In this document: positions 50,401 to 53,090 of the stretch, piece by piece
Position numbering within the stretch: position 1 is the stretch's first letter
Layout: every line of letters begins with the position of its first letter
Made by a program: the position numbers and the translations under genes
Assembly (NCBI RefSeq): GCF_022448905.1
Contig: NZ_JAKVCW010000004.1
Location: forward strand, 248,001 to 312,000
Direction of reading: 5' to 3'
Origin: Shimia sp.
GTDB taxonomy: Bacteria > Pseudomonadota > Alphaproteobacteria > Rhodobacterales > Rhodobacteraceae
Length of the DNA stretch: 64,000 nucleotides
Notes under the pieces: model-generated
Seen by the model: only the letters and a program-made list of their open reading frames with translations
The model's database searches: none
What the model was told of the DNA's origin: nothing

Positions 50401-51552
50401 TCAAGCCAATGAGGCCAACAACGCCTGCGACGGGTCGCCCGTCGGCTCCAATCCGCGACTGCGCTGATAGTCGGCAATGGCGGCCTTAGACTTTGGCCCC
50501 AGCACGCCATCCGCCCCACCAGTGTCATATCCCCGCGCCGTCAAACGCGACTGCAAGGCAATCCGGTCGTCTTTGGTGAGCCCATACTGATCCGGCGGGA
50601 ACGCTGTCCGCAAAGGTCCGCCCCCAGCAATTCGATCCGCCAGATGCCCCACGCCAATCGCGTAACTGTCCGAATTGTTGTAGCGTTTGATTGCCGAGAA
50701 ATTCCCGGTCACCCCAAACCGCGGCCCACCGGCCTGCGGCTGGATCACCCGCCCCGCGCTCTCCCCCGGCCGCAGTTCCCGCCCCCAAGACACACCACGT
50801 GTCCAGCCATTGCGTTGCAAATAAGCCGCCGTGGAGGCCAAAGCATCCGATGGATCATCCGACCAGATATCGCGCCGCCCATCCCCGGTATAATCCACCG
50901 CAAAGGCTTGATAACTCGTGGGAATAAACTGCGTGTGCCCCATCGCTCCGGCCCAGCTGCCGGTCATGCGGTCCACCGTGATATCGCCGTTCTGCAAAAT
51001 CCTCAGCGCCGCAATCAGCTGCTTCTCATAAAAACTCCCGCGCCGCCCATCAAAGGCCAGCGTCGAGGTGGCCGAGATCACAGGAATGTCACCCTTGCGC
51101 TCACCATAGTAACTCTCCAGCCCCCAGATCGCACAGATGATCTCCGCATCCACGCCATAGCTTTGCTTGAGATTGCGCAGCGTGCTGCCATGCCGCGCAA
51201 ACGCCGCCTTGCCTTTGGCAATCCGCTCATCCGAGGCTGCTATCGACAGATAATCCTCCAGCGTGCGGGTGAACTCTGTCTGGTTGCGATCGCGCTTGAT
51301 CACCCCCGGCAAATACCCGGTGTTGCGAAACGCCGCGTTCAACGTGGTCTCACTGATCCCCGCGCTCAAAGCCCGCCCGCGAAAACTCGTAACCCAAGCG
51401 TCATAGGCGCCATTGGGCGTGGGCCGCAAATCCACCGGCAACCCTTGCGCAATAGACGCAGTCTGCCGTGACGGCGTGGTCGAGGTGCCCTGACAGGCCG
51501 CCAATGCCAATGACGACAACCCCACCAGAAAGTTCCGACGTGAAAAACTCAT
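50401..51552 (-). CDS. lytic murein transglycosylase (MltB family), Tat-like lipoprotein
   Basis: 383 residues. The N-terminus MSFSRRNFLVGLSSLALAACQG combines a twin-arginine-like SRRNFL with a lipobox (LAAC), so it is probably a Tat-exported lipoprotein. The transglycosylase domain (about 50-310) has the catalytic Glu in IWGLESYYGE and MTGSWAGAMGHTQFIPTSY. A C-terminal peptidoglycan-binding domain (about 325-380, RLTARGYDTGGADGVLGPKSKAA) follows. It cleaves glycan strands to anhydromuropeptides. GAGG precedes ATG 51552. Confidence 0.94.
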   Translation of the reverse strand: MSFSRRNFLVGLSSLALAACQGTSTTPSRQTASIAQGLPVDLRPTPNGAYDAWVTSFRGRALSAGISETTLNAAFRNTGYLPGVIKRDRNQTEFTRTLEDYLSIAASDERIAKGKAAFARHGSTLRNLKQSYGVDAEIICAIWGLESYYGERKGDIPVISATSTLAFDGRRGSFYEKQLIAALRILQNGDITVDRMTGSWAGAMGHTQFIPTSYQAFAVDYTGDGRRDIWSDDPSDALASTAAYLQRNGWTRGVSWGRELRPGESAGRVIQPQAGGPRFGVTGNFSAIKRYNNSDSYAIGVGHLADRIAGGGPLRTAFPPDQYGLTKDDRIALQSRLTARGYDTGGADGVLGPKSKAAIADYQRSRGLEPTGDPSQALLASLA

Positions 51553-51706
51553 ACCAACTGCCTCTTGTTGTCCGGCCTATGTGCCAAATTCATTGCCAAG
51601 AAGTGTGGCAGAGATTTTTGGGAGGGGCGAGAGGGAAAATACGCGACAAAAGGCAAGGAACACCTTCCTCTACGCCGTCGCCACGTATTCTCAAAACTCA
51701 ACTTAA

Positions 51707-51726
51707 GCGTTATATGGGGATAACGC
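51707..51726. promoter_or_regulatory. GCGTTAT-N6-ATAACGC inverted repeat
   Basis: Perfect seven-base arms with spacer ATGGGG, 32 bp before the Rieske-like gene start. It is a candidate operator for that gene. Confidence 0.4.
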
Positions 51727-51757: not shown

Positions 51758-52333
51758 ATGATCAACAAAAACAACGCGCTCTATTACCTCACCGCAGGGT
51801 GGCTGTTTGCCACAGTGGCGACTGGGCTCTACTACTCGGCGAACAGCGCGACCCCCACCGCAGATGTGACGGCGCAAACCAACGCCAACTTGCACCAAAT
51901 ATCGGTCGTCGACATGGCTCCCGGAGACACGGCTTTCAGCGGCTTTAACGGGAAACCAGTGGTGATCTGGCGGCGCAGCCTGCCACAAATGGCAACCGCG
52001 CTGGTTCAGTGGGATTCCAGCCTTGCGTATGACGACATACTGGAGAGCCTGCAGGACGGATCACTCGAAGCGGACATGGACCCCAAGCAATTCACATATC
52101 TCGAATGGCTTGTGATCAGCCCGGTGGACATGGGTGGCATCGGCTGCGTCACCTTGGCCGATGCGGGGGATTTTGGCGGCTTTTTTGATCCCTGTCGCGG
52201 CACGCATTTTGATCTATGGGGACGCGTCAAAAAAGGACCAAGCGAGCACGACTTACAAGTTGTGCCCACTCGGTTTGATGACAACCGACAGTCCGTTTTG
52301 ATTGATCTCACCGATATTCAAAGGTTCAGATGA
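51758..52333 (+). CDS. degenerate Rieske protein paralogue without cluster ligands
   Basis: 191 residues that align over most of their length with the cytochrome bc1 Rieske subunit: LYYLTAG anchor region, PTADVTAQ, FNGKPVVIWRRS, YLEWLV, then GDFGGFF, GTHFDLWGRVKKGP. In true Rieske proteins the cluster is held by Cys and His in CTHLGC and CPCHG, with a disulfide between the other two Cys. Here those four ligands are M125, G127, D144 and R147, while the disulfide pair C130 and C146 remains at the normal 16-residue spacing. The twin Arg of the Tat signal is N5-N6. Intact frame and conserved scaffold suggest a functional, cluster-free protein. A genuine petA lies elsewhere, I infer. Confidence 0.85.
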   Translation: MINKNNALYYLTAGWLFATVATGLYYSANSATPTADVTAQTNANLHQISVVDMAPGDTAFSGFNGKPVVIWRRSLPQMATALVQWDSSLAYDDILESLQDGSLEADMDPKQFTYLEWLVISPVDMGGIGCVTLADAGDFGGFFDPCRGTHFDLWGRVKKGPSEHDLQVVPTRFDDNRQSVLIDLTDIQRFR

Positions 52334-52348
52334 TTTCGGAAACCGATC

Positions 52349-52885
52349 TCAAAACTTCGCCATACACTCCTGCGCCCGTTCAATTGCATTTTTGGGTGTT
52401 TTGAGCTTCACGGTCACAGCCCGCGGCGAGCCTTGGAATGCCACAAACTCGCGGGCTTTTTCCAGATCGACCACAAACTGCGGGTTGTCAAAAACGATGT
52501 AACCGCCGGTGAAGCCGCCAGAAACGGTCTGGGACACAGACGACGCCGTCCCCGAGTAGATGTTGCCATTCACCACAATCGCAATCTCGCGGTCCCCGTC
52601 CGCCGGCGCTTCGCCTTTGACAAAGGCTCCCAAATAGGCAGCGTCCTGCGCCATGGTGAGACCCGCCTGCACCACGCTGTTTTCGCTGCGCCACTCAATG
52701 AAACAGGACTGCCGCGTGTTGTTCTTGAAGACCGTCCAGTATTTTGAACTCAAATAGGTCTCCACATTGTCACCAGAGGTCGGCAGAACGGTGTCATCCG
52801 CGGCAAAGCTCATCGACGCCGCGAAAAGTGCCGCCGCAGCGGTCAATCCGGTCACAAAGGTCTGAACAGGGTTAAACAGGCTCAT
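52349..52885 (-). CDS. hypothetical secreted protein
   Basis: 178 residues from ATG 52885. A signal peptide (about 27 residues, ending near SMSFAA) is followed by a mixed alpha/beta domain with NNTRQSCFIEWRSENSV, DREIAIVVNGNIYSGTASSV and a Cys near the C-terminus (QECMAKF), so one disulfide is possible. It resembles the small invasion-associated or cell-surface proteins of Rhodobacterales only in outline. It converges on the Rieske-like gene 16 bp away. The sequence 53091-53171 lies about 200 bp upstream. Confidence 0.75.
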   Translation of the reverse strand: MSLFNPVQTFVTGLTAAAALFAASMSFAADDTVLPTSGDNVETYLSSKYWTVFKNNTRQSCFIEWRSENSVVQAGLTMAQDAAYLGAFVKGEAPADGDREIAIVVNGNIYSGTASSVSQTVSGGFTGGYIVFDNPQFVVDLEKAREFVAFQGSPRAVTVKLKTPKNAIERAQECMAKF

Positions 52886-53090
52886 GAAGGCTATTCCTTT
52901 CAAAAAATACGATTTGGGCCAAGCATAGGCACGGCCCGTTGAAGGTAAATTTCTTGTTAGGGTAGAGCATTCCTTGCAACCGGTCCATCACTCAGAAGGT
53001 GCGCATCAAACGCCTCCATGCGGAGAGCATCGTTTCAATCCGCCTAGCCCACCGCCCGCTGCCTTCACAAACGCAACATTTGGCACGCGC

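Follow-up and report, generated by a model that had tools for sequence, protein, structure and literature searches.

Background

The Rieske iron-sulfur protein (ISP) of the cytochrome bc1 complex, PetA (family TIGR01416), is the closest described relative of the gene reported here, which lies at positions 51758 to 52333 of a 64,000-nucleotide stretch of a Shimia sp. genome (contig NZ_JAKVCW010000004.1, positions 248,001 to 312,000; hereafter the window). The likeness to PetA extends along the chain and takes in the single membrane anchor, the ADV hinge, the Rieske head and, in those relatives of the window protein that we call type A, the disulfide pair. The differences are that the window protein and its family have no cluster ligands and a neck longer by three residues, that type A proteins lack the Arg pair of the twin-arginine translocation (Tat) signal and have one residue more in the first ligand loop, and that the window gene is encoded alone, outside petABC, and scores below the family cut-off. 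These sequences very probably represent a single-origin family of horizontally moving, accessory bc1-type Rieske paralogues that lack a [2Fe-2S] site, are membrane-anchored and Rieske-folded, and whose head should be periplasmic.

Several described systems share one or another of these features. NirD, a nitrite reductase subunit, has the Rieske fold without cluster ligands but is soluble and belongs to the oxygenase-type Rieske line, and the window protein has no Pfam match to the Rieske_2/NirD family at E <= 1. A ligand-less bc1 Rieske protein is not new in itself, since in Acidocella the bc1 Rieske protein is described as lacking three or four of its ligands while both disulfide Cys remain (Degli Esposti et al. 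2023, PMC10715153). The window protein shares this combination with the deranged Acidocella ISP; the latter, however, is described as the Rieske protein of a deranged bc1 complex (PMC10715153), whereas the window protein is an extra, mobile paralogue beside an intact petABC. A lengthened neck is likewise found in the 1Ala and 2Ala variants of Rhodobacter capsulatus, but these are laboratory mutants of a cluster-bearing ISP (PMC4583038), and the window protein has a natural extension of three residues and no cluster. Finally, subunit IV (FbcQ) of the R. sphaeroides bc1 complex is a supernumerary protein of 124 residues that is encoded outside the operon and is described as a proven subunit (PMC10041115). 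Were the window protein to bind bc1, both would be extras of that complex encoded outside the operon, though FbcQ, as described, is not a Rieske homologue (PMC10041115).

What is new is a separate, mobile and selected family of ligand-less paralogues in genomes with their own petABC, and we found no description of such a paralogue family in the open-access literature. A first-pass annotation, made from the letters of the window, had recognised the loss of the ligands; it missed both the patchy, mobile and sometimes broken nature of the gene and the published Acidocella precedent.

Results

A bc1-type Rieske protein without a cluster site

The bc1 Rieske scaffold that the first-pass annotation had read from the sequence is borne out by phmmer, which matches the window protein to bc1 Rieske chains (best E 3.5e-18; R. 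sphaeroides chains cover residues 5-176), and by a TIGR01416 match with E 3.5e-15 and 56.5 bits, under the curated cut-off of 97.4. Pfam PF00355 gives no match to the window protein at E <= 1; the canonical PetA of the same genome (G000) does match. That genome carries intact petA, petB and petC, with clear family-level Pfam matches, on another contig, and the window gene is solitary, not encoded with petB and petC. The coexistence with petABC was established by Pfam for G000; for the other Shimia and Ruegeria carriers a canonical-level Rieske match is listed.

With the window protein, 21 open ligand-less sequences were collected, of which 14 are of type A (disulfide present) and seven of type B (disulfide gone). 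The features of the gene are as follows.

51758..52333, + strand: cluster-less Rieske paralogue gene, 191 residues (open reading frame (ORF) listing, profile and phmmer matches)
51767..51847, + strand: N-terminal membrane anchor, residues 4-30, a predicted helix, with K4-N5 at the position of the canonical Tat Arg pair (model, petA alignment)
51854..51925, + strand: P-T-A-D-V hinge with the neck up to P55-G56, exceeding the canonical length by three residues (ADV-to-G spacing 18 versus 15)
52109..52147, + strand: former ligand loop 1, residues 118-130, in which the disulfide Cys130 is the sole Cys or His (alignment)
52145..52147, + strand: Cys130, the first disulfide Cys, retained in 14/14 type A (alignment)
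52187..52198, + strand: former ligand loop 2, D144-P-C146-R147, canonically C-P-C-H (alignment)
52205..52213, + strand: H150-F-D152, matching canonical H-Y-D; H150 and D152 are found in 21/21 (alignment)
52235..52240, + strand: G160-P161, equivalent of the canonical Pro loop, retained in type A; Gly takes the place of the Pro in 5/7 type B (alignment)

The four cluster ligands, two Cys and two His, are missing from all 21 ligand-less sequences, the window protein included. In the window protein, loop 1 aligns as D-M-G-G-I-G-C with canonical C-T-H-L-G-C and is one residue longer (13 from Trp to Cys, versus 12). The loss of the ligands does not depend on the alignment, because residues 118-129 contain neither Cys nor His, and residues 144-147 read D-P-C-R; the loss of all four, as first claimed, therefore stands. 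The pairing of the first two positions with Met125 and Gly127, which had accompanied that claim, hinges on where the gap in the longer loop is placed.

Retention of the disulfide, also claimed at first, holds for the window protein, in which C130 and C146 are both present and 16 apart, and for type A as a whole (14/14), but not for type B (0/7). C146 and D144 are each found in 14/14 type A, and position 144 is acidic throughout (D in 14/14 type A; E in 6/7 and D in 1/7 type B). D36, V37, H150, D152, G160 and P161 are each conserved in 13/13 type A proteins once the divergent L079 is set aside.

At the N-terminus, an RR pair precedes the anchor in 93/93 canonical proteins, 0/14 type A and 5/7 type B. 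The Tat pair of the window protein had rightly been called lost, although the residues aligned with it are Lys4-Asn5 and not Asn5-Asn6. The longer neck is shared across the family: the ADV-to-G spacing is 18 in 20/21 ligand-less sequences (for two of these the value was taken by eye, since the script stopped at an earlier G; L079 is without the motif) versus 15 in the 91/91 canonical sequences in which it is measurable (2/93 are not). Further residues set the clade apart from canonical proteins, namely W71 (21/21), the acidic residue at 144 (21/21) and, in most members, F142. The P-[ST]-ADV hinge and an LY anchor motif are retained in nearly all ligand-less members.

Relatives, distribution and single origin

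In the genus of the window, sampled by 25 genomes, type A occurs in three, G000 included, with the other two copies at 90% (G011) and 73% (G019) identity, and the more distant type B also in three (G009, G010 and G011). When 394 genomes from 393 genera of the bacterial family were searched with a profile, the 40 others for which at least two matches were listed being searched again and membership set at above 200 bits, at least seven carriers emerged, which are G000, G142 and G257 for type A and G117, G215, G333 and G370 for type B. The scores of G142 and G117 before these two entered the profile were just 124.6 and 111.3 bits, so that divergent members may hide at canonical-like scores. The genus of Ruegeria denitrificans has a copy in 11/54 genomes. 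Genomes named R. denitrificans CECT 5091 and Rhodobacteraceae bacterium KLH11 have the gene. Among 385 class-wide genomes nothing above 99 bits was found outside the bacterial family, and 48 further fetched matches, 45 of them from outside it, all have the ligand motifs. IMG/VR holds one contig (L200) with a type B gene; a search for further Rieske entries in viral contigs found none.

Altogether 119 distinct Rieske-like ORFs were sorted by ligand motifs into 93 with both and 26 without both, the latter made up of the 21 open ligand-less sequences, three broken or partial ones (L142, L149 and L170) and two ligand-bearing variants (L132 and L169). A tree, for which the ligand loops were masked, takes in the 14 type A and the seven type B sequences and, after thinning at 80% identity, 28 canonical ones, both variants among them; its bootstrap had not fully settled. 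In it the 21 ligand-less sequences stand apart from the 28 canonical ones with support of 100/100, and type B forms one branch (99/97). Type A does not form one branch in the best tree, where the long-branched L079 is placed beside type B (91/62). On this tree the ligand-less sequences appear to be of one origin. Homologues with the same loss, proposed from the outset as a check, thus exist as a single clade, and its open copies keep their lengths and motifs at identities to the window protein down to 25%.

Two observations concern ligand-bearing sequences. The variant L169 (7988-8608, G500) has the Cys and His ligands and no disulfide pair (CTHLNF ... CPSH), with an unusual N-terminus. Further, G024, G002 and G257 have second petA genes that bear the ligands (L040, L041 and L297).

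Predicted fold

A profile of the 21 ligand-less sequences aligns by hhalign with a profile of six canonical sequences over 168 columns (E 2.4e-33). An AlphaFold model from six alignment rows, which is used with caution, has a mean predicted local distance difference test score (pLDDT) of 71.6 and a predicted template modelling (TM) score of 0.65, with residues 31-39, 123-129 and 188-191 below 50 in pLDDT; an earlier five-row model (mean pLDDT 45.9) was discarded as poor. In Foldseek the best 50 of 233 matches are all bc1/complex III entries, isolated Rieske heads or Bcs1-bound Rieske proteins, and comparison with the bovine head 1rie gives a target TM score of 0.62 and a root-mean-square deviation of 6.0. 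The predicted structure is thus Rieske-like, as the fold check suggested at first had asked.

Selection

Ratios of nonsynonymous to synonymous divergence (dN/dS) were calculated by the Nei-Gojobori method (NG86), with Fisher tests, for eight pairs, which have sequences in common and are not all independent. All eight ratios fall between 0.16 and 0.32 and are significantly below 1 (Fisher P 9e-4 to 2e-19): window-L006 0.28, window-L007 0.21, L006-L007 0.16, L039-L043 0.31, L043-L038 0.16, G470-G464 0.32, G257-G470 0.29 and G257-G464 0.29. A separate set of eleven pairs ranges from 0.15 to 0.32. Constraint is stronger on the head than on the N-terminal part in window-L006 (0.14 versus 0.40) and window-L007 (0.10 versus 0.27), and other pairs, such as L145-L147 (0.55 versus 0.25), have the opposite pattern.

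The control genes mostly give lower values. Among these and the genes below, the names ispG, dsbA, fba, pgk, rpoB and ialB were assigned from sequence and are presumptive. For the same three genomes petA gives 0.06-0.11, pgk and fba 0.03-0.05, mltB 0.035 and the downstream neighbour 0.07 and 0.14; for the trio with G257, petA gives 0.02, 0.12 and 0.20, with 0.015 for ispG in one pair. A spurious match, mltB-L037, was excluded from the controls. The ligand-less gene is under purifying selection, weaker than that on core genes, and the test of selection proposed with the first-pass annotation has come out in favour of a maintained gene.

Insertion sites and mobility

The Shimia copies are flanked by fba (and by mltB too in G000 and G011) on one side and by the downstream gene for a small protein on the other. 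An empty gap of about 145 and 190 bases separates those flanks in G007 and G010, and for 10 others that have this downstream neighbour the same region was not seen in the flanks (15 loci examined). Seven of the 11 Ruegeria copies lie between ispG and dsbA and four elsewhere. Of 30 loci fetched out of 54 ispG loci in Ruegeria (L264-L293), 24 reach dsbA, with the gene present in three and absent in 21; 17 of these 21 were read, and one slot is empty (L281, 81 bases) while the rest hold other ORFs. Eight slot ORFs were scanned, of which six have Pfam matches (PAD_porph, FkbM methyltransferase, CHAP, DUF1194, DUF2189 and glyoxalase) and two none. The ispG-dsbA region of Ruegeria is an exchange slot whose content varies by strain. 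A type B gene in G215 shares the ispG-dsbA site with Ruegeria type A, and this was considered as proof of common ancestry; the argument was dropped, since the orientation differs and since a slot that holds different genes across strains makes a shared position no proof of ancestry, for which the tree is the basis.

Transfer across genera is indicated by synonymous divergence (dS), because that of the gene lies far below that of petA: G257 belongs to a different genus, and its dS relative to Ruegeria G470 and G464 is 0.28 and 0.29 for this gene and 1.10 and 1.62 for petA. No integrase was seen by eye beside the copies at loci with listed neighbours. Gene transfer agents are common in this order and could be carriers of such single-gene cargo.

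Internal stops and a remnant, described below, complete the picture of what, judged by sequence, is a patchy, horizontally moving accessory gene that is broken in some strains. Between G000 and G011 (window 51758-52330 versus L006) dS is 0.18, below petA (0.36) and the neighbours (0.34-0.68), which may reflect an exchange in the recent past.

Discussion

The explanation that we consider best as a whole, while holding it tentatively and at less than an even chance, joins an accessory cluster-less family to the role of a redox-dead occupant of the Rieske site in bc1. Because the anchor, the ADV hinge and the head (in type A the loop Pro also) are still those of a Rieske subunit, a ligand-less protein could enter the bc1 dimer, replacing the real Rieske protein or standing beside it. 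Without a cluster it would transfer no electrons. Since the neck is longer by three residues, and artificial insertions of one or two Ala in the neck hold a real head at the quinol-oxidation (Qo) site, the dead head might rest there, and such a stand-in would lower or rebalance bc1 turnover, or shield the site, when the strain benefits. In the R. capsulatus mutants the head is reported to be held at the quinol site for milliseconds or seconds with one or two Ala inserted, and 2Ala nearly stops the enzyme (4.2 versus 140 per s) (PMC4583038). We infer this mechanism with some hesitation, as a possibility that the sequences suggest. If binding to bc1 were true, the family would provide a central enzyme of respiration with a subunit that regulates or protects it; a narrower form, that the mobile gene encodes a natural dominant-negative Rieske, cluster-less and long-necked, whose dead head sits at the quinol-oxidation site as a traded respiratory brake or shield, seems unlikely.

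A number of points weigh against a role in bc1. None of the loci with listed neighbours showed a link to petABC, and the family is patchy and dispensable, with internal stops in 2/11 Ruegeria copies (G463 and G471) and a remnant in one further strain, G489. The ligand-less gene has a higher dN/dS than petA (0.06-0.11; 0.02-0.20) and core neighbours. Identity of type A to canonical proteins is 0.35 in the anchor, 0.44 in the cluster subdomain and 0.22 in the spacer/base; this is no special sign of bc1 binding, because the pattern recurs when canonical proteins are compared with one another (0.84, 0.85 and 0.63). The loop Pro is part of docking, and type B is without the disulfide in all seven members and without the Pro in most. 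Moreover, the R. capsulatus 1Ala mutant is reported to have a steady-state activity like that of wild type (144 versus 140 per s), with only 2Ala nearly stopping the enzyme (PMC4583038).

The same solitary placement, at varied sites with none seen beside petABC, would suit a fold recruited outside bc1, in which the Rieske scaffold serves only as a stable beta platform for an anchored periplasmic domain that binds another partner or ligand. W71, the acidic residue 144 and F142, which distinguish the clade, and the altered docking loops of type B speak for such a role, but the near-universal hinge and LY anchor motif and a neighbourhood with no visible partner speak against it, and we hold it, too, at less than an even chance. 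Conservation of C130, C146 and D144 throughout type A, and the intergenic slot shared with a presumptive dsbA-like gene in seven Ruegeria strains, could instead point to a thiol/disulfide or alternative-metal protein with a new reactive site formed from C130-C146 or from D144, H150 and D152. That is improbable, as type B, of the same ancestry, is without both cysteines, canonical proteins conserve H150 and D152 just as well, and the content of the dsbA-adjoining slot varies by strain.

A functionless duplicate, drifting and passively moved, would account for the patchy distribution, the two stopped copies, the remnant in G489 and a dN/dS above that of core genes; G143 adds two weak adjacent matches, which stricter tblastn did not confirm. 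It is nevertheless already disfavoured and has little probability, given that all eight pairs have dN/dS significantly below 1 and that 21 copies have stayed open, with lengths and motifs conserved, at identities as low as 25%. Least probable is that a degenerate bc1 Rieske of the Acidocella kind was acquired by transfer: the Acidocella gene is described within a deranged bc1 complex whereas an intact petABC coexists in G000, and the 385 class-wide genomes, among which no Acidocella sequence is identifiable, hold no match above 99 bits outside the bacterial family.

A Rieske protein that has no cluster, is under selection and moves across genera alongside a functional bc1 would amount to a test by nature of what the scaffold can be used for apart from electron transfer. 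There is also a risk for annotation, in that such genes may be labelled as bc1 iron-sulfur subunits despite being unable to carry a cluster.

Genomic setting and further observations

The gene is flanked in the window by two genes on the opposite strand and preceded by an inverted repeat.

50401..51552, - strand: divergent upstream neighbour, a lytic transglycosylase with SLT_2 and PG_binding_1 domains, mltB by Pfam SLT_2 (Pfam)
51707..51726, + strand: perfect inverted repeat GCGTTAT-ATGGGG-ATAACGC, not conserved in orthologues (sequence, orthologue comparison)
52349..52903, - strand: convergent downstream neighbour, a small protein with no Pfam match at 0.001, which we take to be IalB-like (ialB) (ORF listing, Pfam)

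The inverted repeat, GCGTTAT-N6-ATAACGC, had been read as a sign of controlled expression. It exists as described, but the 90%-identical orthologue has a broken version and the 73% one has none, and as a conserved operator it was rejected. A loosely common stretch resembling TCAAC-N-AAGCG-N-ATT was noted by eye at 51690-51725 of the window, where the palindrome overlaps it, and upstream of the Ruegeria copies L046, L047, L171 and L176; it is possibly a promoter.

A match is also contained in 81 plasmid records. Plasmid cargo was considered as a source of relatives and set aside, the relatives among the matches listed (30 of 81; 3 of 3) being below 60% in identity and annotated as petA where named. 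In L174 (8857-9429) a type A copy stands upstream of an ORF of 1381 residues, presumably rpoB-like, which is an odd place for an accessory gene. On the IMG/VR contig L200 (197-3567) the type B gene is sited downstream of a Septu-like ptuA/ptuB pair, at a distance of about 1.1 kb.
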